A stretch of DNA of 37,868 bases from Acidimicrobiales bacterium (GTDB taxonomy: Bacteria; Actinomycetota; Acidimicrobiia; Acidimicrobiales; GCA-2861595), in contig DATLFN010000166.1 of assembly GCA_035540975.1 (NCBI GenBank), forward strand, positions 1 to 37,868. Reading direction: 5' to 3'. The position numbers and the translations under genes are program-made. Below the pieces are notes generated by a model. It was not told where the DNA came from. It searched no databases and saw only the letters and a list, made by a program, of their open reading frames with translations. Below are positions 5,966-31,216 of the stretch, piece by piece (position 1 is the first letter of the stretch; each line of letters opens with the position of its first letter).

Positions 5966-7315
5966 TCACCGCGTCCCCGGCGCCCGGCCGACGGGAGGCA
6001 GGTTGGCCCGCCGGTAGGCGGCGGGCATGGCGACCACGGCGGTGGACGGGACCAGGTGGTCGACCAGGCCGCGGTCCAGCCGGTCGCCGTCGAGGGCCTT
6101 GCGGGGGACCTCCACCTGCTCGGGCAGGTAGTCGGCCACCGGCACGTTGTCGGCCTCGAACGACGGCGAAGGGAACCGCCGGCGGTACACGAGCGTGCCG
6201 TCGTGCTCCTCGACCAGCCGCAGCAGCGGGTTCACGCCCAGCGGGCCGCAGGCGTGGGGCCACTCGCCGGCCGAGCCCCAGTCGCGCCCGTCGCCGGCGT
6301 GGGCGGCGCCGGCCAGCAGGGTGACGGTGGGCGACGTCGAGACGTCGCCGGCGTCGTCCCCGTCCATGCCGAGGCCGGCCAGGTACCGGGCCAGCACCCG
6401 GTCGTCGGCGAACACCCGGTGGGGGAGGTCGCCGGCGAGCGCCCCCCAGCCGTCGGGCGACAGAGGCATGCCGGCGTAGACGTGGCGACCGAGGGAGCTC
6501 TTGACGGCGGCGAAGGCGAGGGTCCCGCCGGGAGCCAGCACGCGGGCTGCCTCCCGGGCGACCGCCCACTTGCCGGCGACGAACGACAGCACGTCGGAGG
6601 ACAGCACGAGCCCGAAGCAGGCGCCCGCCAGGGGCAGGGCGGCCGCGTCGGCGCACACGAACCGGCCGCCGCCGGCGATGCCGGCGGCGGCCCACAGCTC
6701 GAACAGCGACAGGTCCACGCCCACGGTGCGCCCGTCCCCGAAGCGCTGGTCCAGCCACCACGTGAGGTGGCCCACGCCGCAGCCCAGGTCCAGCACCGGG
6801 CCGCCGGCACCGGCCGCCTCGGCGGCGGCGAGGGCCACGAGGTGGCGCGGGGTGCCGACGCGGGCGTTGAAGTAGTGCACGGCCTCGGGGTTGCGGCCGC
6901 CCCAGCCCGAGAAGCCGAGGCGCACGAGGGCGAACGGGTCGGCCGCCGCCGCGTCCAGGAGCGGCGTGAGCGCCGCCCGGAGGCGATGGCGGTCGCGTCG
7001 GGCCAGGGCGCGCCCCGGCGCCGCGCCCCCGGGCACCACCTCGAGGGCGGCGGCCAGCCGCCCGAGGCGGGAGGGGTCGAGCTGGCGCACCAGGGCGGCG
7101 GCGGCGGCGTCGGCGGGAAGGCCCTGGCGGACCAGCGCCACCGACTCGTCGTGCCCGGGGAGGAGCACGGGAACGCCCGCCAGGACGGGGTACTCCGCCG
7201 CCTCGCTGCGGAGCACGCCGTAGCGCACGTGGTCGCCGTCGCGCTCCAGGACGTCGAGGGAGAGGGCCCCGCCGGTGGCGGGGCACCGGAGGAGGCCGAG
7301 GAGGTCCGATCGCAC
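5966..7315 (-). CDS. Class I SAM methyltransferase with Trm112-like N-terminus
   Basis: A 449-residue protein. Residues 1-52 look like a Trm112/UPF0434-type small domain (LLRCPATGGAL, then YPVLAGVPVLLP), but with one Cys instead of a complete zinc site. The SAM-binding motif PVLDLGCGVGHLTWWL lies at 173-188, followed by VGVDLS (motif II) and a typical motif IV/V region around SSDVLSFV. The C-terminal 120 residues are unassigned. GTG at 7315 lies one base after the stop of the upstream 661-residue protein, with a usable AGGACGG upstream. This is the last gene of the eleven-gene minus-strand run. Methylation of a glycan component is inferred from context; the substrate is unknown. Confidence 0.8.
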   Translation of the reverse strand: MRSDLLGLLRCPATGGALSLDVLERDGDHVRYGVLRSEAAEYPVLAGVPVLLPGHDESVALVRQGLPADAAAAALVRQLDPSRLGRLAAALEVVPGGAAPGRALARRDRHRLRAALTPLLDAAAADPFALVRLGFSGWGGRNPEAVHYFNARVGTPRHLVALAAAEAAGAGGPVLDLGCGVGHLTWWLDQRFGDGRTVGVDLSLFELWAAAGIAGGGRFVCADAAALPLAGACFGLVLSSDVLSFVAGKWAVAREAARVLAPGGTLAFAAVKSSLGRHVYAGMPLSPDGWGALAGDLPHRVFADDRVLARYLAGLGMDGDDAGDVSTSPTVTLLAGAAHAGDGRDWGSAGEWPHACGPLGVNPLLRLVEEHDGTLVYRRRFPSPSFEADNVPVADYLPEQVEVPRKALDGDRLDRGLVDHLVPSTAVVAMPAAYRRANLPPVGRAPGTR

Positions 7316-7316
7316 G

Positions 7317-9302
7317 TCAGTCCGTCCTGGCGCGCCGGAGGGCCCGGAAGGAGTTGACGGCGGAACCGGTGTCGTTCCCCCACTCCTCGTTCACGATGAT
7401 GCCGACCCGCTCGATGCGGATCGGGGACGTGGAGGGGTACACGTCGGTGACCGCCCGCTGGAGGACGGGCCGGCCGTCGTGCCACGCGAGGAACCGGTGC
7501 CCGTCGAAGGCGACCCGCAGGCGGCTCGGCTCCCCGTGGCGGACCGACGCCAGCAGCGACCACACGGCGTCGTACATGTCCTCGTGCCCGCCCAGGTGGT
7601 AGAAGGTCGACACGGAGGCGCCCTCGTACACGTCGTCGAGGAACAGGTTGGCGATCACGTGGTTGTCGGCGTCCTGCCAGAACACGAGGCCGACGCGGCA
7701 ACCCTCGCCCTGGTGGCGGGCCGTCCCGGGCGGCACCACCTCGATCTCCACGTCGGCGCACGACGGGTCCTCCCAGTCGACGGTGTAGATCGTGCGGTCG
7801 GGGTTGGGCGACTCCCTGGTCGCCCTGACCCGCGCCGCCCCATCGGCGGGCAGCTCGATGGTGCCCGGCCCGCACGTCCGTTCCCACCGGATGCCGCCGC
7901 TCGGCGTTGCGATGCCGTGGAGGTCGTCGGCCACGGCGTCGAAGCGCTCGTCGACGACCACCGTGTCGCCGGAGCACGTCCAGGCCGGTCCCACCTGCAA
8001 GGCGGTGGGCATGGGGATCTCGCGGAGGTGCGCCTCGACGTCGCGGGCCCGGGCGTCGCCGGCCACCTCCAAGCCGACCCCGGTGGCCGCGGCGTCGCGG
8101 CCGTCGGTCACCCAGTCGCCGAAGACGAGGACCCCGTCGACGTGGACGCCGATCGTCCTGCCTTCGTCGGTGACCTGGAGGCCGACCTCCCGTCCGGCCG
8201 CCAGGCGCACGTCCGGTGCCGTGGCCACCGTCTCCACGGCGCCGTCGACCACGCGCACGAGCGACGCGCCGGTGGCGCCGACCCGGGCGATCCAACGCGC
8301 GCGGCCGGCGGCCCGGAACACCAGGCCGGCCGAGCCGGCGCCTCCCGGCGAGGTGACGACGGCGTGGAGGAGGCCCACGGGCGCGTGCGCCTCGGCGTGC
8401 GCCTCACCCGTCCCCGTGGCGCCGGCCGCCGTGCGGGTGAGCGATCCCGTGACGCGCCACGAGCCCCCGGTCTCGGGGGCCGCCACCTCCACGTCGCCGC
8501 TCCCGGTGAGCCGGTCGGCGACGGAGGCGGAGCCGTACCAGCGGGCCCACGGCTCGACGACCTCGGCGCACACCGCGCCCACCCGGGTGTCGACCCGGTA
8601 GCCGACCTCGCCGAGGATGCGCTGCTGCACGCCGGCGTAGACGTCCGGCGCGGCGTCGTGGCGGTCGATGGCGAGCGGGCGCAGGTACGGCTCGTCGCCC
8701 AGGCCGACGGCGCCCGGCGTCGTCATGGCGTAGTAGGCGGCGCCTCGCTCGCGCAGTGACACCACGTAGACGATGTCGAGGTTCTGGACGCCGAGCGCCG
8801 CTCGGAACGGCTGGTGCCGCACGGCCGCCCACAGCTCGCCGTTGTGGCAGTTGGCGGCGTGCATGACGAAGGCGTTGCCGTGGACGAGCGGCTCGGCGGG
8901 CGCCTCCGACCCGAACCACCCGACGGCCAGGTTCTCGAAGTGCAGGGGGCGGCGGAACCTCCCCCGCCGGGCGTCTCCCAGCACCCGTCGGAGGCGTTTC
9001 CAGCCCGAGTCCGGGAAGTAGAAGGTCTGCGAGGAGTTGTGCCCGTTCAGGACCCGGGCCGCCATGGTGAGGCCGGGAACACGGGGGTACGGGCCGTACA
9101 CGACGCCCTGGCGGCCCCACCCCGGCCGTGCCAGGGGGCGCAGGCGGAGCCGACCGTGGTCGATGCCGACGAGCCCCTCGGCGTCCACGCCGCCCCGGCG
9201 TACGCCGGTGGGGGCGACGGACCCAACCACGGTGCCGGCCGGGCGGTCGTCCCCGAAGTCGTCGCAGAACCCGACGTCGGTCGAGGGCCGGGTGGCCGTC
9301 AC
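7317..9302 (-). CDS. 661-residue protein of unknown function with ConA/LamG-like beta-rich regions
   Basis: I do not recognise a named family. The protein has no evident signal peptide or membrane segment. Three regions can be seen: an N-terminal part (about 1-260) with unusual segments such as NGHNSSQTFYFPDSGW; a middle part (about 265-425) whose pattern GLVFRAAGRARWIARVG ... VHVDGVLVFGDWV resembles laminin-G/ConA-like sugar-binding sandwiches; and a C-terminal part (about 445-660) of the same flavour, with VGLVFWQDADNHVIANLF and RVAFDGHRFLAWHDGRPVL. A glycan-binding or glycan-modifying role fits the setting but is inference. The GTG at 9302 overlaps the PIG-L gene by four bases (GTGA). A large, apparently cytosolic beta-rich protein inside a glycan assembly operon is unusual. 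Confidence 0.75.
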   Translation of the reverse strand: MTATRPSTDVGFCDDFGDDRPAGTVVGSVAPTGVRRGGVDAEGLVGIDHGRLRLRPLARPGWGRQGVVYGPYPRVPGLTMAARVLNGHNSSQTFYFPDSGWKRLRRVLGDARRGRFRRPLHFENLAVGWFGSEAPAEPLVHGNAFVMHAANCHNGELWAAVRHQPFRAALGVQNLDIVYVVSLRERGAAYYAMTTPGAVGLGDEPYLRPLAIDRHDAAPDVYAGVQQRILGEVGYRVDTRVGAVCAEVVEPWARWYGSASVADRLTGSGDVEVAAPETGGSWRVTGSLTRTAAGATGTGEAHAEAHAPVGLLHAVVTSPGGAGSAGLVFRAAGRARWIARVGATGASLVRVVDGAVETVATAPDVRLAAGREVGLQVTDEGRTIGVHVDGVLVFGDWVTDGRDAAATGVGLEVAGDARARDVEAHLREIPMPTALQVGPAWTCSGDTVVVDERFDAVADDLHGIATPSGGIRWERTCGPGTIELPADGAARVRATRESPNPDRTIYTVDWEDPSCADVEIEVVPPGTARHQGEGCRVGLVFWQDADNHVIANLFLDDVYEGASVSTFYHLGGHEDMYDAVWSLLASVRHGEPSRLRVAFDGHRFLAWHDGRPVLQRAVTDVYPSTSPIRIERVGIIVNEEWGNDTGSAVNSFRALRRARTD

Positions 9303-10141
9303 CGTGCCGGGCCCCCGAAGGGCACGAAGACCTCGACGGGCGCGAGGAACAGCGACAGCAGGTCTTCGTCCATCACCGCCCAGTTGCGCTCTCCCGTGAG
9401 GTTGGTGGTCTGGCTCCGGTACTGGGCCAGGGCCGCTCGCTTGGCCGCCAGGTGCTCGTCGGTCCGCACCGACACCGTCCTCAGCCGGCTGGCGCGGACG
9501 GGATCGCCAAGGTAGCGCCGGATCGACCCCTCCCCGTCCGGGCCCGTCCCCCACGGGCCGTCCACCCAGAACCAGATGGGGAACTCGAGGACGCGCGAGG
9601 CGCGACCGGCGGCCCGCACGGCGGCCGCCGTGGCCGCGCTGACCGCCTGGTGGTCGACGTGCCAGTCGGAGCGGTAGGTGGTCAGGACGTCGTCGGGGCG
9701 GACCTCGTCGAGGATCGTGGCCAGCATGGCGGTGACGGCGTCGTGGCGGGCGGCGACGCTCCCCTCCTCCAGCTCGAGGAGGCGGAGGTCCCGCGCCTCG
9801 ACGCCCAGGCGGGCGCACGCCGCCCGCACCTCCCCGGCGCGGACGGCGGCCAGGTCGTCCGGCGAGAGGACCTCCGAGCGGTGGGACAGCCGCCCGTCGG
9901 TTACCACCACCACGACGACGCGCGTGCCCGCGGCCCGCTTGCGGGCGATGGTGGCGCCGCAGCCCAGCGTCTCGTCGTCGGGGTGGGGGGCCACGACCAC
10001 GGCGCTGCGGGCGGCCGCCCCCGCCGTCTCGTCGACGGAGCGGGCGAGCACGGCCCGCCGCCACACGCGGCGGATGACCGGCTTGGAGGCGCGCGCCGCC
10101 CGGCGGGGTGCGGACGCCGCCAGTTCGCGGGCCGTCGTCAC
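9299..10141 (-). CDS. PIG-L family deacetylase
   Basis: A 280-residue zinc-dependent LmbE/PIG-L-type hydrolase. The signature VVVAPHPDDETLGCG lies at residues 48-62, where His53, Asp55 and Asp56 supply the metal ligand and general base. The second element, SDWHVDHQAV, holds His161 and His164. Family members remove N-acetyl groups from GlcNAc-containing glycolipids or metabolites such as GlcNAc-inositol. Here it probably de-N-acetylates an amino sugar in the cluster's glycan precursor; mycothiol-type substrates are less likely given the neighbours. The GTG at 10141 overlaps the membrane-protein gene by four bases, and the stop overlaps the next start by four bases. The first 40 residues are basic and precede the domain. 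Confidence 0.9.
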   Translation of the reverse strand: MTTARELAASAPRRAARASKPVIRRVWRRAVLARSVDETAGAAARSAVVVAPHPDDETLGCGATIARKRAAGTRVVVVVVTDGRLSHRSEVLSPDDLAAVRAGEVRAACARLGVEARDLRLLELEEGSVAARHDAVTAMLATILDEVRPDDVLTTYRSDWHVDHQAVSAATAAAVRAAGRASRVLEFPIWFWVDGPWGTGPDGEGSIRRYLGDPVRASRLRTVSVRTDEHLAAKRAALAQYRSQTTNLTGERNWAVMDEDLLSLFLAPVEVFVPFGGPAR

Positions 10142-11460
10142 GGGCGGGCGGCCTCCACCACGTCGTCGCAGGCCAGCGCCGCCGACATGCCGCGGGGGAG
10201 CACGGGCACGTCGACCCGCTCGCCGGGAGCGCACGCCGCCGCCGACGTGGCCAGGGCCTCGTCCCACGCCGGGCCCTCGTCCCGGTCGTTGTGGGACGGG
10301 AGCCCGACGACCCAGCAGGCGGCGACGACGGCCAGCGCGGCTGCGGTCGTGCGGTCGAGGGCCGCCCCGTCGAGGACGACGACCAAGGCGGCCGTCGCCA
10401 GCAGGGCGGGGGCGAAGGCGTAGCGGGGTGCCGAGATGCCGCTCAGGGCGACGGGTGCCACGAAGTACGCCACGCTCACCCCGCCCAGGGCGGCGAGCAG
10501 GGCCGCCCGTTCGCCCACGACGCGGCGGCGCACCCACGCCACGACGGCCACGCCGGCCACCACGACGGCGGCCACCGCCACGCCCCGGGCGGACAGCCCG
10601 CTCTCGCCCACGAACCGGTCGCCGGCCAGCCCCCGCCCGAACACGTCGACCACGTAGCGGAACGGCAGGAGGGCGACCTCGGCCTCCTCGCCCAGCTGGC
10701 GCTGCCCGGTGGCGCCCACGACGCCCACCACCTGCACGACGGCGGACGCCCCGAACGCCACGACGGCGGCGTCCGCCCGCCGGCCGGCGGCGACCACCCG
10801 GAGGGCCACCAGGGGCGCCAGCACCAGGGCGAAGGGGTCGCTCAGGACGGCGGCGGCCACCACCGAGGCGGAGACGGCCGCCTCCCAACGCGACGGTGGC
10901 TTCCACACGACCGCCCAGAAGGCGGCGTAGAGCAGGTACCAGTGGAGGTTGGCGACGTTGGCGAGGATCTCCGTCCCGGCCAGCGGCGACACGAGCAGGG
11001 GCGCCGCGCAGGCGACGCGTCCCCAGAGGGACCGCACGTGGGCCGACGATGCCCGGAACACGAACACCGCGCAGGCGGCCGCCACCCCGGCGGCGATGAC
11101 GGCGAACCCCGTGTCGGCCGCCCGGAGGGGGAGGGCCGACACGGCGGCCGCCGCCAGGCGGGGGACGAGGTGGAGGTAGCCGGCGAAGGGCTCGAAGAGC
11201 GACCCGCCGAGGCCGAGGTCGCGGGCCTGGGCCAGGAAGACGGACCCGTCCTCCGCCCACACCGTGTCCGTGGCGCCCGGTCCCTGCTGGCGGCCCAGCA
11301 CGACGGCGGCGCCGGCGACCACGGCGGCGAGCGACACGCCGACGGTGCGCGCCGTCACCCGGGCCGGCCCCGAGGGGCGGATCACGTCACCGGCGACCCG
11401 GGTCAGCGACGGGCGGGCCAGCGGCCGGGGGGCGACGGCGGGTTCAGCGCCCGTCGCCAT
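10138..11460 (-). CDS. Polytopic membrane protein, possible GT-C type glycosyltransferase
   Basis: A 440-residue protein with a first membrane segment near residues 38-56 and about nine or ten more. The first outside loop carries TDTVWAEDGSVF (residues 64-75); an acidic pair just after the first helix is the usual catalytic position in GT-C enzymes that use polyprenyl-phosphate sugars. It is followed by FAGYLHLVPR and, later, NVANLHWYLLYAAFW. A GT-C-like glycosyltransferase is the best inference, but no family name can be claimed. The ATG at 11460 overlaps the upstream SDR gene by 17 bases. The stop overlaps the PIG-L start by four bases. The C-terminus is soluble. Confidence 0.75.
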   Translation of the reverse strand: MATGAEPAVAPRPLARPSLTRVAGDVIRPSGPARVTARTVGVSLAAVVAGAAVVLGRQQGPGATDTVWAEDGSVFLAQARDLGLGGSLFEPFAGYLHLVPRLAAAAVSALPLRAADTGFAVIAAGVAAACAVFVFRASSAHVRSLWGRVACAAPLLVSPLAGTEILANVANLHWYLLYAAFWAVVWKPPSRWEAAVSASVVAAAVLSDPFALVLAPLVALRVVAAGRRADAAVVAFGASAVVQVVGVVGATGQRQLGEEAEVALLPFRYVVDVFGRGLAGDRFVGESGLSARGVAVAAVVVAGVAVVAWVRRRVVGERAALLAALGGVSVAYFVAPVALSGISAPRYAFAPALLATAALVVVLDGAALDRTTAAALAVVAACWVVGLPSHNDRDEGPAWDEALATSAAACAPGERVDVPVLPRGMSAALACDDVVEAARP

Positions 11461-22105: not shown

Positions 22106-23380
22106 GTGGCCAAGTTCGGAGACGGTGGTGACCTGGTCAAGTGCAGCTTCTGCGGGAAGTCGCAGAAGCAGGTCAAGAAGCTGATCGCCGGTCCCGGCGT
22201 CTACATCTGTGACGAGTGCATCGACCTGTGCAACGACATCATCGAGGAGGAGCTGGCCGAGTCGTCGGAGCTGCGCTTCGACGAGCTGCCCAAGCCCCGT
22301 GAGATCTTCACCTTCCTGAACGACTTCGTGATCGGCCAGGAGCAGGCCAAGAAGATCCTCTCCGTCGCCGTCTACAACCACTACAAGCGGGTCCAGGCCG
22401 ACGCCTACCACGACTCCGAGGTGGAGCTGGCCAAGTCCAACATCCTCCTGCTCGGCCCCACCGGCTGCGGGAAGACGCTGCTGGCCCAGACCCTGGCCCG
22501 CATGCTCAACGTGCCCTTCGCCATCGCCGACGCCACGGCGCTCACCGAGGCGGGCTACGTGGGGGAGGACGTCGAGAACATCCTCCTCAAGCTCATCCAG
22601 GCCGCCGACTACGACGTCAAGAAGGCCGAGACGGGGATCATCTACATCGATGAGATCGACAAGATCGCCCGCAAGTCGGAGAACCCGTCGATCACCCGGG
22701 ACGTGTCGGGCGAGGGCGTGCAGCAGGCGCTGCTGAAGATCCTGGAGGGCACCACCGCCTCGGTGCCGCCCCAGGGGGGGCGCAAGCACCCCCACCAGGA
22801 GTTCATCCAGATCGACACCACCAACGTGTTGTTCATCTGCGGCGGCGCCTTCGCCGGGCTGGACAAGATCATCGAGAACCGCATCGGCCGCAAGGGCATG
22901 GGGTTCCGGGCCGAGATCAAGCGCCAGGCCGAGCGGGACGAGGGCGAGACGCTCGGCCACGTGCTCCCCGAGGACCTGCTGAAGTTCGGCCTCATCCCCG
23001 AGTTCGTGGGCCGGCTGCCCGTCATCGGCGCCGTGTCCGGGCTCGACCAGGGGGCCCTGGTCCGCATCCTGGTGGAGCCCCGCAACGCCCTGCTCAAGCA
23101 GTACCGGAAGATCCTCGAGCTGGACAACGTCGAGCTGGAGTTCACCGAGGACGCCCTCGAAGCGGTCGCCGAGCAGGCCCTGCTGCGGGGCACCGGCGCC
23201 CGCGGCCTGCGGGCCATCCTGGAGGAGGTCCTCCTCCACGTCATGTACGAGCTGCCCAGCCTGCCCGACATCGGCAAGTGCGTGGTCGACCGCTCGGTGG
23301 TGCTCGACCGGGTCCACCCCACCCTCGTGCCCCGCGCCCAGCAGGACAAGGAGACCCGGCCCCGTAGAGCGGCGTCGTAG
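22106..23380 (+). CDS. clpX: ATP-dependent Clp protease ATP-binding subunit ClpX
   Basis: A 424-residue AAA+ unfoldase of full length. The N-terminal zinc-binding domain has Cys13, Cys16, Cys35 and Cys38. Walker A is GPTGCGKT (117-124), Walker B is IIYIDEIDK (178-186), and the substrate-gripping pore loop is GYVGED (150-155). The RKH loop (GGRKHPHQ) and the ClpP-binding IG(F)-loop region are present further on. It recognises tagged proteins and threads them into ClpP. The GTG at 22106 is preceded by GGCGGGGGGAAG, a good Shine-Dalgarno. The Arg-rich last ten residues are beyond the family core. It is convergent with the acyltransferase gene, 15 bases apart. Confidence 0.98.
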
Positions 23381-23395: not shown

Positions 23396-24634
23396 TCAGG
23401 AAGCACTCGAGGGGAGCGAGGCGGACCGCGAGGGGAACATGCGGTCGCGGAGGCGGAGCATCGGGCCTTCGACGGCGACGCTGGCGAGGAAGCCGCCGAG
23501 CACCGCACACGACGTCAGCACCACCACGCTGGCCAGCCACGTCCAGCCCGTCCATCCCCCCGCCCGGCTCGTGATCCACGGGACGAGGTCGCGCCCCAGC
23601 ATCCCGGTGACGGTCACGTGCCACAGGTACACCGCGTACGAGTACACGCCGATCCAGGCGACCGTCGAGGCGAAGCGGTGGACCAACGGCGCCGCGACCC
23701 TGATGTCCGAGCGGTGGGTGTGGTACGCGGCCAGGAGGAAGGCGGCCGAGCCGAGCAGGTTCATGGTCAACCCGGCCGTTCGGACCCACGCGGTGGATGT
23801 CGGGACAACCAGGTTCGGCGCCCACAGGACGATCCCCGCCGCCAGCAGCGGCACCCGGTGGCGCCCGAGCCCGGCGAACACGGCCGGCCATGCCTCGGCA
23901 CCGGCGCGGATCGCCACGCCCAGGAGCAGAGCGTCGAAACGGAGGTGGCTGGCGAACATCGTGTCCGCCCAGGGGTGCTCGGTGGCGACCGCGAGCGACC
24001 GGAGGGCGAGGCACACCGGGATGCCTGCGAGGCACAGGGGGACGATCCGGTGGCTCAGCCGCCTGAGCTGCAGCAGGACCAGGGCGAGGGGCAGCAGGAG
24101 GTAGAAGTGCTCCTCCACGCCCAGTGACCAGGTGTGGGTGGCGGGGTTGGGCCCCACGTAGTTCTGGAGGAAGACGAAGTTGGGCCAGTACCGCGCCAGC
24201 TGGTCGCCGAGCGCCCCGCCCGCGCTCGCTCCGGCGACGACGGCCTTGGCGGCGGGAACCAGCACCACGTAGAGCAGGAACACGAAGTACAGCGGGTAGA
24301 GCTTGAACCCCCGTCGCACGTAGAACCGCCAGACGTCGATGCGGCCGTGCGCCTTCAGCTCACCGAGCAGCAGCCCCCCGATCAGGAAGCCGCTCAGCAC
24401 GAAGAACAGGTCGACGCCGAGCCAGCCGATGCGGAACACCACGGTCGCCGCCATCCCGGGCACCCCGTCGGTCTCGGGCAGTCCCAGGTGCTTGCCGATC
24501 ACGAGCAGCACGGCGATGCCCCGCAGGAAGTCGAGCTGGACGTTGCGGCGGCTCCGGACGGTCCCGGTGGAGGCCGAGACGTCGAGCGGTTGCGAAACCG
24601 GTCTGTGACGCACCACTGCCCCCCCGACGCGCAA
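23396..24634 (-). CDS. Acyltransferase 3 family membrane protein
   Basis: A polytopic protein of up to 412 residues with about ten membrane segments. The opening NVQLDFLRGIAVLLVIGKHL carries the Arg and His signature of acyltransferase 3 (OafA/YrhL-like) enzymes, and LFFVLSGFLIGGLL follows as in other members. WSLGVEEHFYLLLPL, another hallmark, is also present. These enzymes O-acylate glycans, lipids or antibiotics. A link to the glycan cluster is possible. The start is uncertain: TTG at 24634 has a TAGTGT box nine bases upstream, while GTG at 24616 has a G-rich tract before it. It interrupts the usual clpX-valS neighbourhood. Confidence 0.85.
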   Translation of the reverse strand: MRVGGAVVRHRPVSQPLDVSASTGTVRSRRNVQLDFLRGIAVLLVIGKHLGLPETDGVPGMAATVVFRIGWLGVDLFFVLSGFLIGGLLLGELKAHGRIDVWRFYVRRGFKLYPLYFVFLLYVVLVPAAKAVVAGASAGGALGDQLARYWPNFVFLQNYVGPNPATHTWSLGVEEHFYLLLPLALVLLQLRRLSHRIVPLCLAGIPVCLALRSLAVATEHPWADTMFASHLRFDALLLGVAIRAGAEAWPAVFAGLGRHRVPLLAAGIVLWAPNLVVPTSTAWVRTAGLTMNLLGSAAFLLAAYHTHRSDIRVAAPLVHRFASTVAWIGVYSYAVYLWHVTVTGMLGRDLVPWITSRAGGWTGWTWLASVVVLTSCAVLGGFLASVAVEGPMLRLRDRMFPSRSASLPSSAS

Positions 24635-24769: not shown

Positions 24770-25582
24770 ATGGGAAAGATCCTGAAGTTCGCCCTCCTGG
24801 GAGGGCTGGGTGGGGCCGGTTGGTCCGCCTACCAGGCCTACTCCCGGGACGAGACGATCGACCAGATGGTCAACCAGGCGGCCAAGGTAGGCGCCGAGGC
24901 GGCTGCCGCGGGGGCCGCCGTGGGCTGGCTGCTGACGCTCGGCGGGAACCGCAGGGCGCGGAAGAAGGCGAGGAAGGCGGCCGCCCGGGCGGCGGCCCAC
25001 CGGGGTGCCCTGGGCGGGGTCGCCTCCGCCGCCCGCCCCGCCTTCGAGCACGCCCTGGAGGTCGCCATGCACGCCGCCGAGATGGCGCGCCCACCGCTCG
25101 AGCAGGCGGCCCGCACCACCAGGGAAGCGGCGCAGGGGGCGGCCGAGGCGGCCCGGCCCCGGGTCGAGCAGGCCGCCAAGGTGACCCGTCGCCAGGCCCG
25201 CCGGGCGGCCAAGGTGGCGCGGGCGCGCGGGGAGCACGCCGCCAAGGTGACCCGGCGGCAGGCCCGCAAGGCGGCCCGCGCCGCCGCCGCTGCGGCCGCG
25301 CCGCGTGTCGAGCACGCCGCCGCCGTCACCCGCCAGCAGGCACACCGGGCGGCCGAGTCGGCCCGCCCCCACGTCGAGCAGGCCGCCAGGCTCACCCGCC
25401 GCCAGGCCCGGCGCGCCGCCGCCGCCGCCAAGCCCCACGTCGAGGTGGCGGCCAGGCGTGCCGCCGACGTCGCCGTGCTCGCCCGGGAGCGGGCGGCCGA
25501 GGTGTCCGCCCACCGCGACGGCGCCCTCGACGGCGCCGGTGCGCCCGACAGGTCGGCGCACGTGCTCATCGAGGTCGCGTAG
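24770..25582 (+). CDS. Protein of Ala/Arg-rich 22-residue helical repeats, unknown function
   Basis: A 270-residue protein I do not recognise. Residues 5-24 (LKFALLGGLGGAGW) and 43-58 (EAAAAGAAVGWLLTLG) are mildly hydrophobic and could associate with membrane. A basic stretch (61-70) follows. Residues 89 to about 242 are made of near-tandem copies of a 22-residue unit, consensus RPxxEQAAxxTRRQARRAAxxA. The charges recur regularly along a helix, as in apolipoprotein-like amphipathic repeats; histone-H1-like Ala/Lys tails are the alternative comparison, but here Arg dominates and each unit keeps one Glu. Lipid, polyphosphate or nucleic-acid binding are all open. The start is supported by TAGGGT seven bases upstream. 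It lies in its own short unit before the valS-like gene. Confidence 0.75.
   Translation: MGKILKFALLGGLGGAGWSAYQAYSRDETIDQMVNQAAKVGAEAAAAGAAVGWLLTLGGNRRARKKARKAAARAAAHRGALGGVASAARPAFEHALEVAMHAAEMARPPLEQAARTTREAAQGAAEAARPRVEQAAKVTRRQARRAAKVARARGEHAAKVTRRQARKAARAAAAAAAPRVEHAAAVTRQQAHRAAESARPHVEQAARLTRRQARRAAAAAKPHVEVAARRAADVAVLARERAAEVSAHRDGALDGAGAPDRSAHVLIEVA
25034..25495 (+). repeat. Degenerate 66-base (22-residue) coding repeats
   Basis: Seven imperfect units can be placed within the protein at residues 89-106, 107-128, 129-150, 151-176, 177-198, 199-220 and 221-242. Four have exactly 22 residues plus a first shorter unit; the fourth has a four-Ala insertion. The TRRQARRAA core recurs in units 3, 4 and 6, with TRQQAHRAA in unit 5. 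Units differ at the DNA level, so this is an old duplication held by selection rather than a recent expansion. Confidence 0.8.
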
Positions 25583-25594
25583 TGCGACGGCGCA

Positions 25595-25633
25595 CCCGCA
25601 CGGCCCCGCGCTAGCGCGCACGGGTCGTGCGGG
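25595..25633. repeat. Inverted repeat spanning the start of the valS-like gene
   Basis: CCCGCACG (25595-25602) and CGTGCGGG (25626-25633) are perfect complements, and between them lies the palindrome CGCGCTAGCGCG (25607-25618). The right arm covers the GTG start codon at 25627, so a folded leader could mask translation. It could equally be a terminator-like hairpin for the repeat-protein gene; no T-run follows. No T-box motif is present. Confidence 0.5.
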
Positions 25634-27345
25634 AGCGCTCGCAGGTGCTCGCCGGCCCCGTCTCCGTCGCGTCGGCGACCGGCCGCGGGGACGCCGCCGC
25701 CCTGGTGGCGGCCGACGTGCTGGCGCGGGCGGCCCGTGCCGCCGGGCAGGCGTCCGCCGTGGCGACGGCCATCGTGGCCGGCGGCCTCGGCCACCAGTTC
25801 GCCACCGAGGAGGACCTCCGGCGCGAGGGCCTGGACCGGGCGGCGGTGGGGGCCGGCGATTTCGCCGCCAGGGCGGCGCTGGTCCACGACGAGGCGGGCC
25901 GGCGCCTGGGCGCCGCCGCCTGTGCCCTGGGCGTGGACCTCGACGTGGCGGCGGCGGCCCGGGCCGGGGAGCAGACGGCGGTGGCGGCGTGCGTGGCGTT
26001 CGTGCGCCTGTTCGAGGCGGGGCTGGTCGTGGAGGCCGAACGCGTCGTTGAGGTCTGCCCCCGCTGCGCTACCGTGGCCGCCGGGCCGGACGCCGTGCCC
26101 GGGGTGGTCGAGGGCGAGGCCCTGGTGCTCCGCCTGGCCGTGCTCGACGGCCACGACGCGGTGGGCTGGCTGGACGTGCGTTGCCCGGCGCCCGAGCTGG
26201 TGCCCGGGATCGTGGCCGTCGCCGTGCCGGAGGGCCACCCGGCGGCCGGCCACGCCGTCGCCGTGCCCGTGGCCGCCACGGTCGTCCCCGTGGTCGCCGA
26301 CCCGACGGCGGTCCAGCCTCTCCTCCTCGTACCCGCCCACGACGCCTCCGACCTGGAGCGGGCACGACGCAGCGGCCTGGCGCCCGTCGTCGCCGTCGAC
26401 GCCACCGGCACCGTGCGGGCGCCGGGGCCGCTGGACGGGCTGGCCCGCCACGCCGCCCGTGCCGCCGCCGCCCGCCTCATCGCCGCCGAGGGCGTGGTGG
26501 CCGCCGTCGAGCCGGCGAGCGAGCCGGTCGCCCGCTGCGCCGCCTGCCGCACCGTCCTGGTCGCCGTGCTGGGCCGGCACTGGTTCCTCGCCGTGGCCGA
26601 CCTGGAGACGGCGGCCGCCGACGCCGTGCGCGAGGGAGCGCTGGTGGTGTCGCCGCCTGCCGCGCGCGACGAGCTGCTCGCCCTGGCCGGCACGTCCGAC
26701 GACTGGTGCCTCAGCAGCCGGGCGTCGCCCGGTCAGGCCCTGCCGGTGGCCCGCTGCGCCGACTGCGGCTCGGTGGACGTCGCCGTCGACCTCGCCTCGT
26801 CGTGCCGGCGGTGCATGGGCGACCTGGTCCGCGAGGACGGCGTCCTCGACGCCCGCTTCGTGGCCGGTGTGTGGCCGCTGTGGGCGTCGGGATGGCCCGA
26901 CGGGGGCCGACGGGGCGGCGAGCCGGCCACCACGGCGCTGGTCGTGCCGGGAGAGCGGCTGGTCGACGGGCTGGCCATGGCCGCCCTCGGGCTTCGCCTC
27001 GGTGGGACCGTCCCGTTCGCCGAGCTGGTGACGACGCCCGTCGCCGGGGGCGGGCCCGTGGAGGTGGTCGCGCTGGTCGAGGCCGAGGGCTCCGCGGCGG
27101 CCCGGGTGGCGCTGCTCTCCGACGGTGTGGACGTCGGGTTCGGCCGCGACGTGGCCGCCCGCCTGGACGCCCTCGCCGCCGGCGGCGCCGACGTGCGGCG
27201 CCTGGAGGCGGCGTGCGCGGCCGCCCTGGACGCCGGCGCACCGGCCGCCGCCCTGGGCCTGCTGGCCGCCGCGCTGGCCGAGGGCGTCCCGCCCGAGGAG
27301 GCGCCGCGGGTCCGGGCCCTGGCGGCGCCGTTCGTCGGAGCGTGA
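25627..27345 (+). CDS. Degenerate valyl-tRNA synthetase paralogue lacking catalytic motifs
   Basis: A 572-residue protein that aligns by eye along the ValRS core. FVRLFEAGLVVEAERVV then CPRCATV (125-150) matches the connective-peptide entry. PAHDASDLERARRSG (236-250) matches the editing-domain PAHDPNDF region. RCAACRTVL, DWCLSS, RCADCG and DGVLDARFVAGVWPLWASGW (404-423) follow in ValRS order. The HIGH motif region reads GRGDAAAL (19-26), and the GTDHAG and WWGHR elements are gone. After GGTVPFAELV (459-468), where KMSKS should follow, there is none; the anticodon-binding and coiled-coil parts (about 300 residues) are missing. The frame is intact, so it is not a fresh pseudogene. Its place before folC and ndk is the ancestral valS position. 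The stop overlaps folC by four bases. Confidence 0.85.
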   Translation: MRERSQVLAGPVSVASATGRGDAAALVAADVLARAARAAGQASAVATAIVAGGLGHQFATEEDLRREGLDRAAVGAGDFAARAALVHDEAGRRLGAAACALGVDLDVAAAARAGEQTAVAACVAFVRLFEAGLVVEAERVVEVCPRCATVAAGPDAVPGVVEGEALVLRLAVLDGHDAVGWLDVRCPAPELVPGIVAVAVPEGHPAAGHAVAVPVAATVVPVVADPTAVQPLLLVPAHDASDLERARRSGLAPVVAVDATGTVRAPGPLDGLARHAARAAAARLIAAEGVVAAVEPASEPVARCAACRTVLVAVLGRHWFLAVADLETAAADAVREGALVVSPPAARDELLALAGTSDDWCLSSRASPGQALPVARCADCGSVDVAVDLASSCRRCMGDLVREDGVLDARFVAGVWPLWASGWPDGGRRGGEPATTALVVPGERLVDGLAMAALGLRLGGTVPFAELVTTPVAGGGPVEVVALVEAEGSAAARVALLSDGVDVGFGRDVAARLDALAAGGADVRRLEAACAAALDAGAPAAALGLLAAALAEGVPPEEAPRVRALAAPFVGA

Positions 27346-28709
27346 CCCCGCCCGAACGGGCGTGGACGTACGCCGACGCCCTCGCCTGGCTGGACGAGCA
27401 CGTCAACCTCGAGGCGTCCGGCGTCGGCCGCACGAGGCCGACGCTCGACCGCATGCGCCGGGCGGCGACCCTGCTGGGCGACCCCCAGGGGGCGGCGCCG
27501 GTCATCCACCTCACGGGGACCAACGGCAAGGGCTCCACCACGCGCATGATCGGCGCCCTCCTGGCCGCCCGGGGCCTGTCCGTCGGCACGTACACGAGCC
27601 CCGACCTGGAGCGGGTCAACGAGCGGCTGGCCTGGAGCTCGGGGCACGCCGACGCCGGTGGACGGGGCGGCGCCGGGCCCGGCCACCTGCGCTTCCAGCC
27701 GATCGACGACGAGGCGTTCGCCGAGACGCTGGGGGCGGTGGCCGCCGTCGAGCCCCTGGTGGAGGGTCGCCTCTCCCGGTTCGAGATCCTCACCGCCGCC
27801 GCCTTCCGTTGGTTCGCCGACGTGGCCGTGGACGCCGCCGTGGTGGAGGTGGGCATGGGTGGGTCGTGGGACGCCACCAACGTGGCCGACGGCGTGGTCG
27901 CCGTGGTCACCAACGTCAGTCTCGACCACGCCGAGGTCATCGGCCCCACGGAGGCCGACATCGCCCGCGAGAAGGCGGGCATCGTCAAGCCCGGCAGCAC
28001 CCTGGTGCTGGGTGAGACCGACCCGTCGCTGGCTGCGGTGTTCCGGGACACGGCGGCGGCCACCATCTGGGAGAGGGGGGCCGACTTCGGGGCGACCTCG
28101 AACCGGGTCGCGCACGGCGGCCGGGTGGTCACCCTGCGCACGCCCTCGGCCACCTACGAGGACGTCTTCCTGCCCGTGCACGGCGCCCACCAGGGCGACA
28201 ACGCGGCACTCGCCCTCGCCGCGGCCGAGGCCTTCTTCGACGCCCCGCTGTCCGAGGACGTGGTGGTGGAGGCCTTCGGCTCCCTCCGGCTGCCGGGGCG
28301 GATGCAGGTCGTCGGCCGCCAGCCGCTGGTCGTCCTCGACGGCGCCCACAACGTGGCCGGTGCCCGGGTGGTCGGCCCGGCCGTCGCCGAGGCGTTCGGG
28401 GCCGACCGCCCCCGGGTCGTCGTGGCCGGGATGCTGCGCGGCCGCGACCCGGCCGCCGTGCTGGAGGCGCTCGGGCCGGCGCGGCTGGTCGTTGCCTGCC
28501 CGGCGCCGTCGCCCCGCTCGCTCCCGGCCGCCGAGGTGGCGGCCGCCGCCCGCTCGCTCGGCATGGACGCCCGGGAGGAGGGCTCGGTCGACGCCGCCGT
28601 GCACGCGGCCCTGGCCGCCGCGGGCGACGACGACGTGGTCCTCGTCACCGGGTCGCTGTACGTGGTGGGCGCCGCCCGCCCGGTGCTGCGCCGGCGAACC
28701 CGGCAGTAG
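27342..28709 (+). CDS. folC: Bifunctional folylpolyglutamate/dihydrofolate synthase
   Basis: A 455-residue Mur-ligase-type enzyme. The ATP-binding P-loop LTGTNGKGST spans residues 57-66. YTSPDLERVNERL follows as the family's folate-site segment. VEVGMGGSWDATNV holds the metal-binding Glu and the DATN motif, and NVSLDHAEVIG and EKAGIVKPG are conserved. The C-terminal domain has LDGAHNVAGARVV. It adds glutamate to folates, and may also make dihydrofolate from dihydropteroate. The GTG at 27342 overlaps the stop of the valS-like gene by four bases (GTGA), so folC depends on that gene for translation coupling. The order valS-folC-ndk is standard in actinobacteria. Confidence 0.95.
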   Translation: MTPPERAWTYADALAWLDEHVNLEASGVGRTRPTLDRMRRAATLLGDPQGAAPVIHLTGTNGKGSTTRMIGALLAARGLSVGTYTSPDLERVNERLAWSSGHADAGGRGGAGPGHLRFQPIDDEAFAETLGAVAAVEPLVEGRLSRFEILTAAAFRWFADVAVDAAVVEVGMGGSWDATNVADGVVAVVTNVSLDHAEVIGPTEADIAREKAGIVKPGSTLVLGETDPSLAAVFRDTAAATIWERGADFGATSNRVAHGGRVVTLRTPSATYEDVFLPVHGAHQGDNAALALAAAEAFFDAPLSEDVVVEAFGSLRLPGRMQVVGRQPLVVLDGAHNVAGARVVGPAVAEAFGADRPRVVVAGMLRGRDPAAVLEALGPARLVVACPAPSPRSLPAAEVAAAARSLGMDAREEGSVDAAVHAALAAAGDDDVVLVTGSLYVVGAARPVLRRRTRQ

Positions 28710-28722: not shown

Positions 28723-29130
28723 ATGGACCGCACCTTCGTCATCGTCAAGCCCGACGCCGTGGAGCGCGGCCTCGCGGGCGAGATCGTCTCCCGCTTCGAG
28801 CGCAAGGGGCTGAAGCTGGTCGCCGCCGAGCTCCGGCTGATCGACGTCGACCTGGCCGGCCGTCACTATGCGGAGCACGCCGAGAAGCCGTTCTTCTCCG
28901 ACCTGGTGGCGTTCATCACCCGGTCGCCGGCGCTGCTGCTCGTCGTGGAGGGCCCCGGCGACACCTGGAAGGTCGTCCGCACCCTGATGGGCCCCACCGA
29001 CCCCAAGGACGCCCCCCCCGGCACCATCCGCGGCGACTACGGGGTCATCCTCACCGAGAACCTCGTCCACGGCTCCGACAGCCCCGACAGCGCCGAGCGG
29101 GAGACAGCCCTGTTCTTCCCAGGGCTCTGA
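28723..29130 (+). CDS. ndk: Nucleoside diphosphate kinase
   Basis: A 135-residue enzyme of the usual bacterial length. TFVIVKPDAVERGLAGEI at the N-terminus binds the nucleotide. The catalytic phospho-accepting His116 lies in NLVHGSDS, the signature NxxHGSDS. GPTDPKDAPPGTIRGDYG forms the Kpn-loop region. The C-terminal ETALFF is conserved. It transfers the gamma-phosphate from ATP to other NDPs in the cytoplasm and balances NTP pools. The ATG is 13 bases after folC with no Shine-Dalgarno. A strong GC hairpin follows 48 bases after the stop. Confidence 0.97.
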   Translation: MDRTFVIVKPDAVERGLAGEIVSRFERKGLKLVAAELRLIDVDLAGRHYAEHAEKPFFSDLVAFITRSPALLLVVEGPGDTWKVVRTLMGPTDPKDAPPGTIRGDYGVILTENLVHGSDSPDSAERETALFFPGL

Positions 29131-29323: not shown

Positions 29324-30361
29324 GTGTCGGAAAACATCTTCTCGTCGTTTCTCGGCCGCGACATGGCCGTCGACCTGGGCACCGCCAACACCCTCGTCTA
29401 CGTCCGGGGCCGCGGCATCGTCCTGAACGAGCCGTCGGTCGTGGCCGTCAACGTGAAGGACGGCCGGCCGCTCGCCGTGGGCATCGAGGCCAAGCGCATG
29501 ATCGGGCGCACGCCGAGCCACATCCAGGCCATCCGGCCCCTCAAGGACGGCGTCATCGCCGACTTCGAGGTCTGCGAGAAGATGCTGCGCTACTTCATCC
29601 AGAAGGTGCACCAGCGGCGTTTCGCCAAGCCCCGCATGGTGATCTGCGTGCCCTCGGGGATCACCGGGGTGGAGCAGCGGGCCGTCCAGGAGGCGGCCGA
29701 GTACGCCGGCGCCCGCAAGCCCGCGTACATCATCGAGGAGCCCATGGCCGCCGCCATCGGCGCCGGGCTCCCCGTCCACGAGCCCACCGGGAACATGGTC
29801 GTCGACATCGGTGGCGGCACCACCGAGGTCGCCGTCATCTCCCTCGGGGGCATCGTCACCAGCCAGTCGATCCGCATCGGCGGCGACGAGCTCGACCACT
29901 CGATCATCCAGTTCATCAAGAAGGAGTACAGCCTCGCCCTCGGCGAGCGAACGTCCGAGGAGATCAAGATCGCCCTCGGCTCGGCCTGCGCCCTCGAGGA
30001 GGAGCTGCACGCCGAGATCCGGGGCCGCGACCTGATCACCGGACTGCCCAAGACGATCGTCACGAGCACCCAGGAGATCCGCGACGCCATCGAGGAGCCC
30101 CTCTCCGCCATCGTCGACTCGGTCAAGGTCACGCTGGACAAGACCCCGCCCGAGCTGGCGGCCGACATCATGGAGCAGGGGATCGTCCTCACCGGTGGCG
30201 GCGCGCTCCTGCACGGCCTCGACGCCCGGCTCTCCTCGGAGACCGGCATGCCGATCGTGATCGCCCGCAACCCGTTGCACTCGGTCGCCATCGGGGCGGG
30301 CCAGTGCCTCGAGGAGTTCGACGCACTCAAGCAGGTGCTGATCTCCTCGAGCGGGCACTAA
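29324..30361 (+). CDS. mreB: Rod shape-determining actin homologue MreB
   Basis: A 345-residue actin-fold protein. The first phosphate-binding loop is DLGTANT (17-23), the second is [11 protein letters not shown], and the adenosine-site segment is [33 protein letters not shown] also matches MreB closely. It polymerises along the inner membrane and directs the elongasome. The GTG at 29324 is set by a strong Shine-Dalgarno and by the family N-terminus, which starts a few residues before the actin fold. It begins a mreB-mreC-mreD-mrdA-rodA run; mreC follows 18 bases on. Presence of the full set implies lateral wall growth and a rod shape, unlike the many actinobacteria that grow at poles without MreB. 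Confidence 0.98.
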
Positions 30362-30379
30362 CCGCGGGAGCCGCCCTTC

Positions 30380-31216
30380 GTGGCCGTCTACCGGCGCACC
30401 TCGCGTCCCCGCTTCACGCTGCTGCTGCTCGTCCTCACCGCGATCACGCTCCTGACGCTGGACGAGCGCAGCAACGGGCTCGGCGTCATCGACACCGCTC
30501 GGGACGGCGCCCGAGACCTGTTCGCGCCGGTGAAGGACGCCGCCGACGCCGTCTTCTCGCCGGTCACCGACTTCTTCCAGGGCGCCGTCCACTACGGCGA
30601 CGTGGAGGAGGAGAACGCCCGCCTGCGGGCCCAGCTGGCCGAGCGGGAGGCGCTGGCGCTGCGGGCGGCGGACGCCGAACGCGAGCGCGAGGCCCTCCTC
30701 GACCTGGCCGCCCTCGACTTCGTGGGCGACATCCCCACCGTCGCCGCCCGGGTGGTGCGGTCGCCGGCGTCGGGGTTCGACCTCACGATCGAGCTCGACC
30801 GCGGGCGCGAGGCGGGCGTCGCCAAGGGCATGCCGGTCGTGGGCTCGGGCGGCCTCGTCGGGCGGGTGGTGGACGTGTCGCGCCGCACGTCCATCGTCCA
30901 GCTGGTCACCGACTCGTCGTCGAGCGTGGGCGTGCGCCTGGCGGCGTCCGGCGACGTCGGCGTCGCCGTGGGCCGCGGCTCGGGCTCCACCCTGCGCATG
31001 GACTTGGTCGACCCGGCCACCAAGGTGGAGAAGGGCGAGGCGGTCGTCACCAGCGGGCTCCAGAACAGCGTGTTCCCGCCCGGCATCCCCGTCGGCAGGG
31101 TGGTCGCCGCCACCACCGCGTCGGGCGCCCTCCAGCAGGACGTCACCGTCGCCCCCGCCGCCGACCTGCGGCGCCTGGTGTTCGTCAAGGTGCTCCAGTG
31201 GGCTCCCATCCGATGA
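30380..31216 (+). CDS. mreC: Rod shape-determining protein MreC
   Basis: A 278-residue membrane-anchored protein. One membrane helix lies at about residues 13-25 (LLLLVLTAITLLTL), followed by an extracytoplasmic coiled coil at about 73-100 (EEENARLRAQLAEREALALR) and the two beta-barrel domains (VVRSPASGFDLTIELDRG, then GMPVVGSGGLVGRVVDVS). MreC bridges MreB/MreD with the wall synthases outside. The GTG at 30380 follows GGGAG. The stop overlaps the mreD start by four bases (ATGA). Length and domain order are normal. Confidence 0.93.
   Translation: MAVYRRTSRPRFTLLLLVLTAITLLTLDERSNGLGVIDTARDGARDLFAPVKDAADAVFSPVTDFFQGAVHYGDVEEENARLRAQLAEREALALRAADAEREREALLDLAALDFVGDIPTVAARVVRSPASGFDLTIELDRGREAGVAKGMPVVGSGGLVGRVVDVSRRTSIVQLVTDSSSSVGVRLAASGDVGVAVGRGSGSTLRMDLVDPATKVEKGEAVVTSGLQNSVFPPGIPVGRVVAATTASGALQQDVTVAPAADLRRLVFVKVLQWAPIR

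Follow-up and report, generated by a model that had tools for sequence, protein, structure and literature searches.

Gene organisation at the clpX-folC locus

The window, meaning the whole 37,868-nucleotide stretch of Acidimicrobiales DNA that was analysed, carries between clpX and folC a gene derived from a valyl-tRNA synthetase (ValRS), here called pseudo-ValRS. Its segments and neighbours are listed below.

22106..23380, + strand: clpX, the conserved upstream neighbour by synteny
25627..27345, + strand: pseudo-ValRS gene, 572 aa, GTG start and TGA stop; ValRS-derived, with both active sites lost
25627..26073, + strand: N-terminal half of the Rossmann domain (aa 1-149), its HIGH and GTDHAG elements replaced in the alignment to 1gax and 13 canonical ValRS
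26056..26067, + strand: CPRC (aa 144-147), the first zinc knuckle, its Cys unchanged in 15/15 family members
26074..26556, + strand: CP1 editing-like domain (~aa 150-310), with Arg216, Thr219, Lys270 and Thr272 (T. thermophilus numbers) replaced
26332-26343, + strand: PAHD segment (aa 236-239) within CP1, read from the sequence
26536..26814, + strand: zinc cysteines C304, C307, C377, C380, C393 and C396 and the DWCLS segment; cysteines in 15/15 of the family
26854..26856, + strand: Arg410 codon, at the position of the valine-pocket residue Trp456; 13/15 orthologues have Arg here, and 13/13 canonical ValRS have Trp
27037..27342, + strand: C-terminal helical part (aa 471-572), corresponding in alignment to where the ValRS helical bundle begins; some orthologues vary here or lack it
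27342..27345, + strand: GTGA, the four-base overlap of the pseudo-ValRS stop and the folC start; most other carriers have an overlap or a short gap
27342..28709, + strand: folC, the conserved downstream neighbour by synteny; GTG start
28723..29130, + strand: ndk, conserved synteny
29324..31216, + strand: mreB-mreC, conserved synteny

The frame is intact, and all the ValRS landmarks quoted in the original prediction occur in it in order: CPRC (144-147), PAHD (236-239), RCAAC (303-307), DWC (359-361), RCADCG (376-381) and VLDARF..GVWPLWASGWP (406-424). HIGH, GTDHAG, WWGH and KMSKS are all missing from the protein, again as had been noted, and the TGA stop indeed shares four bases with the folC GTG.

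Two further open reading frames lie upstream. One, acyltransferase-like (23396-24634, reverse strand), is inserted between clpX and the second and is unmatched in that interval of other carriers. The second encodes an Ala-rich, repeat-like protein (MGKILKF..., 24770-25582), relatives of which turn up in this interval both in carriers and in several non-carriers of pseudo-ValRS. Its occurrence in non-carriers led us to reject it as a specific partner, and no gene is known that co-varies with pseudo-ValRS in presence and absence. As for composition, there is no lysine among the 572 residues of pseudo-ValRS and only 0-3 per ~470 in its orthologues, compared with 7-10 in canonical ValRS from the class to which these genomes belong; the FolC of the window is likewise lysine-poor (3/455), and high GC may explain much of the low lysine content. 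The net charge of the pseudo-ValRS core resembles that of canonical ValRS and is uninformative on tRNA binding.

ValRS homology and predicted fold

The 572-residue protein matches NCBIfam PRK14900 (2.6e-45, 154.7 bits) and Pfam PF00133 (46.6 bits), and of solved structures the nearest in sequence is T. thermophilus ValRS (1gax, E 1.2e-33). The match to TIGR00422 (4.1e-34) scores 117.7 bits against a cut-off of 612.1, so the curated valS threshold is not reached, and the PRK14900 score likewise falls well short of its model's threshold. Judged from these sequence matches, homology to ValRS is far beyond chance.

A comparison of predicted structure with ValRS had been called for in the original prediction, and the AlphaFold model built with 15 family and 23 canonical sequences is confidently of ValRS fold (pLDDT 94.7, pTM 0.92), aligning to 1gax residues 34-685 with a Z of 31.8 and an rmsd of 3.1 over 565 of the 572 residues. 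Prediction from the family alignment alone gave a pLDDT of 91.7 and a pTM of 0.89, and both models align to 1gax over 565 residues with a Z of 31.8, from residue 33 or 34 to residue 685. Both models thus retain the Rossmann domain, the CP1 domain and the beginning of the helical bundle. Loss of the whole anticodon-binding and coiled-coil end, as first described, holds for the part equivalent to 1gax residues 686-862 (the rest of the anticodon-binding domain and the coiled coil), which is gone from the window copy, but not for the beginning of the bundle, which remains. Several orthologues stop earlier at the C-terminus than the window protein. By sequence and by predicted structure, then, the protein is a ValRS in both descent and fold.

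Loss of the synthetic and editing sites

Fifteen family members were set against 13 canonical ValRS, alignment column by alignment column, with T. thermophilus numbering counted from the 1gax alignment. HIGH (residues 50-53) and KMSKS are each absent from all 15 orthologues and present in all 13 canonical enzymes. The valine-pocket residues Asp81 and Trp456 have changed as well: Asp81 is replaced in every orthologue, and Trp456, invariant in the canonical set, has become Arg in 13 of the 15. The features by which a ValRS enzyme would be recognised, namely HIGH and KMSKS, a score above the curated model cut-off and the Asp81-Trp456 pocket, are thus all lacking. A divergent ValRS that still charges or activates valine alone, under special conditions, would be in keeping with the overall fold, yet with the signature catalytic motifs absent throughout the family and the anticodon-binding and coiled-coil domains absent or cut, we find it scarcely credible.

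Other family-specific fixed changes accompany the Trp456 to Arg replacement, suggesting a remodelled pocket and not random loss, and it may be asked whether the protein is a catalytic aaRS-like enzyme with a changed substrate, in the way that MshC arose from CysRS, a new and perhaps acidic ligand being bound by Arg410. However, without HIGH, KMSKS and the GTDHAG Asp the protein no longer has the class I machinery for ATP binding and adenylation; known catalytic aaRS-like paralogues generally retain an ATP-binding site, and such an enzyme seems unlikely.

In CP1, Arg216 is lost from all 15 orthologues (Ala in 11), Thr219 is Leu in all 15 and Lys270 has given way to a non-polar residue in all 15; Thr272 is retained in two and replaced in 13, and Asp279 is retained in four. 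Asp276, kept in 12 of the 15, is alone in being mostly conserved among the six editing-site residues examined, so that the residues expected of a CP1-type trans-editing protein are otherwise largely or wholly replaced. These replacements tell against the original suggestion that the protein edits mischarged tRNA. A stand-alone trans-editing enzyme, hydrolysing for example Thr-tRNA-Val by means of the retained CP1, would accord with a CP1 fold kept at high AlphaFold confidence and with the PAHD segment, which survives in most members (His 15/15, Asp 12/15), but besides the altered site the CP1 region is under no tighter constraint than the remainder of the protein, and the alt_ValRS described below has an editing-domain motif of its own (TTRPEL). 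We therefore regard trans-editing as quite improbable. All eight zinc-type cysteines are retained in the 15 orthologues, and some of them vary among canonical ValRS. Since the losses are coordinated and several of the replacements are fixed family-wide, the pattern is that of a pseudoenzyme with a changed role.

Distribution and ancestry

Among 397 genomes of the order, orthologues occur in 15, which fall in 10 families; the carriers whose names are visible are all metagenome-assembled genomes. Wherever a contig holds both neighbours the gene sits between clpX and folC, usually with ndk and mreBC next. In sister orders and other actinobacterial classes, a canonical full-length valS occupies this same position between clpX and folC-ndk-mreBC, indicating that pseudo-ValRS is the ancestral valS, and the ancestral locus assigned to it in the original prediction is borne out. 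Among canonical ValRS the family profile scores highest with those of the same class, from the sister orders that have valS there. The family is monophyletic (100/100 support), but its stem is so long that the tree does not fix its sister among the canonical ValRS, and it is the profile scores and synteny that carry the argument for its placement. By branch length, the evolutionary rate of pseudo-ValRS is several times that of alt_ValS.

When mapped on a tree built from ClpX, FolC, MreB and Ndk, the gene is scattered over deep branches of the order and its presence needs ~7 changes, which, together with the ancestral locus, is best read from these sequences as a single origin in the order's ancestor followed by several losses. 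Most of the order lacks the gene, which is thus dispensable in many lineages. In relatives without it clpX is followed by folC with no valS-like remnant, and none was detected in the 19 clpX-folC gaps of non-carriers that were examined.

Selection on the reading frame

Nei-Gojobori dN/dS is 0.22 for the pair G018-G071 (folC 0.22), 0.39 for G002-G004 (folC 0.19) and 0.18 for two contigs of G059, possibly two strains assembled together; the range of 0.18-0.39 thus comes from three pairs, one of them within a single assembly. For further close relatives, family f14 offered just two genomes and f55 a single one. Constraint on the C-terminal helical part is looser in one pair (0.62), and some members have no such part. 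No internal stops occur across the 15 orthologues. Neutral simulation gives several stops per copy at GC 0.75 but only ~1.5 at GC 0.9, and because so few are expected at the higher value, the stop count is weak alone and more weight falls on dN/dS.

A decaying pseudogene, or a frame kept solely for its translational coupling to folC, might explain why many carriers have a four-base or comparable overlap with folC and why most of the order lacks the gene, with high GC reducing the chance of stop codons. Against this stand the dN/dS values, the eight cysteines retained in every orthologue and the stop-free condition of orthologues in 10 families, with neither half-decayed copies nor remnants where the gene has been lost; moreover, coupling would not preserve internal residues. 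Plain decay, which the original prediction had also doubted, is disfavoured because of the dN/dS and the absence of half-decayed copies, and coupling as the only constraint, which it had allowed for, is disfavoured because folC sits behind clpX in relatives that lack the gene. Both seem very improbable, and sequence comparison indicates that the gene encodes a long-lived pseudoenzyme and is not in decay. With a conserved predicted fold, a site ablated across the clade and purifying selection, the protein is of the aaRS-like pseudoenzyme type.

The active ValRS of the genome

A second, full-length ValRS, as anticipated, is encoded elsewhere in the genome (G000:C29:11738-14158), with PPPTVSGSLHVGH (HIGH) and KMSKS. 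It belongs to NCBIfam alt_ValS (NF000540), scoring 1360 bits against a cut-off of 900. This NCBIfam model is labelled an 'exception', yet alt_ValS is the ordinary ValRS of these genomes and no extra copy. An alt_ValS-type match was present in 10/10 carriers examined of the 15 (in one case the contig is partial). Each of the 59 relatives searched gave a ValRS match, at E 1e-30 or better, and most of these matches are alt_ValS-like.

Some families have a longer ValRS type of 1060-1100 aa (L035-L040), with an insertion between valS model positions ~486 and 572, encoded away from the clpX-folC locus; lying outside that interval, it was rejected as the missing ancestor at the locus. A further ValRS-like protein is found beside alt_ValS in G022 (L074, G022:C160, reverse strand 6852-10151). 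It keeps HLGH and KMSKS, is without the TTRPET and KxTPAHD editing motifs and lies near a transporter-like ORF; it is perhaps part of a biosynthetic or resistance cluster.

A proposed role for pseudo-ValRS

The presence of alt_ValS, intact orthologues in 10 families with a dN/dS well below 1, and a confident ValRS fold, the outcomes of the three checks that had been called for, all agree with the earlier proposal that valS was replaced by a copy elsewhere and its remnant kept under selection. We propose that the ancestral bacterial valS of the lineage stayed at its original locus while alt_ValS, another ValRS subtype, took over tRNA charging, and that the displaced valS would then have turned into a pseudoenzyme, keeping the zinc-stabilised Rossmann and CP1 scaffold and losing both sites. 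From SLIMP and HisZ we infer that pseudo-ValRS may work non-catalytically as a binding protein, most likely as a regulatory or scaffold partner using the surviving core and the remodelled pocket (Trp456 to Arg). We assign a probability of about 0.8 to this course from ancestral valS, through displacement by alt_ValS, to a pseudoenzyme with a non-catalytic binding role. As for the role itself, a share in tRNA charging or translation, with alt_ValRS, tRNA or some further aaRS as the partner, is a tentative candidate, and some other non-catalytic binding or sensing role has close to an even chance. We would put at even odds the fuller account in which the order swapped its ValRS subtype and the displaced synthetase became a new regulatory protein, the first ValRS-derived pseudoenzyme with synthetic and editing sites ablated, serving as a binding partner or sensor in translation.

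Pseudo-ValRS would be a natural record of a displaced essential enzyme that was converted at its original locus to a conserved pseudoenzyme rather than deleted. Should a partner be identified, a hitherto unknown tier of control over translation or amino-acid metabolism in an environmental actinobacterial group would come to light.

Comparison with known systems

Canonical bacterial ValRS (TIGR00422, PRK05729; 1gax) shares with pseudo-ValRS its descent, the fold over residues 34-685, the zinc cysteines and the locus, whereas HIGH, KMSKS, the valine-pocket Asp and Trp, the editing residues and most of the anticodon-binding and coiled-coil end are found only in the former. The house ValRS of the lineage, alt_ValS (NF000540), is a distant homologue of pseudo-ValRS, but has a complete active signature, with WDDNGLPTER and TTRPEL, and is without the CPRC zinc knuckle.

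Among synthetase-derived proteins, SLIMP, the nearest working analogue ahead of HisZ, is a dead SerRS paralogue of animal mitochondria, in which the catalytic pocket has collapsed in all members while the fold is kept and the protein works as a partner (PMC10570016). Pseudo-ValRS resembles it in its origin from an aaRS, its conserved fold, a catalytic pocket ablated family-wide and its long persistence alongside an active synthetase. SLIMP is, however, class II and eukaryotic, and is needed for charging as a heterodimer with a close relative; pseudo-ValRS is class I and bacterial, the active enzyme is another ValRS subtype, and any partnership is hypothetical.

HisZ, also class II, has a known partner, HisG, and a defined pathway, whereas pseudo-ValRS is without a known partner. 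The two are alike as bacterial aaRS paralogues, HisZ, listed in a 2022 review of aaRS duplications (PMC9437257), having its role outside tRNA charging, in histidine biosynthesis. That review deals with paralogues that kept a catalytic domain; its table assigns functions to the paralogues of many synthetases but has no entry for ValRS (PMC9437257), and our search of the open-access literature, most subscription journals lying outside it, returned no ValRS pseudoenzyme. Relative to known aaRS-derived pseudoenzymes, pseudo-ValRS thus appears, from its sequence, to be new in being derived from ValRS, in having both sites ablated and in occupying the ancestral locus after displacement by another subtype.
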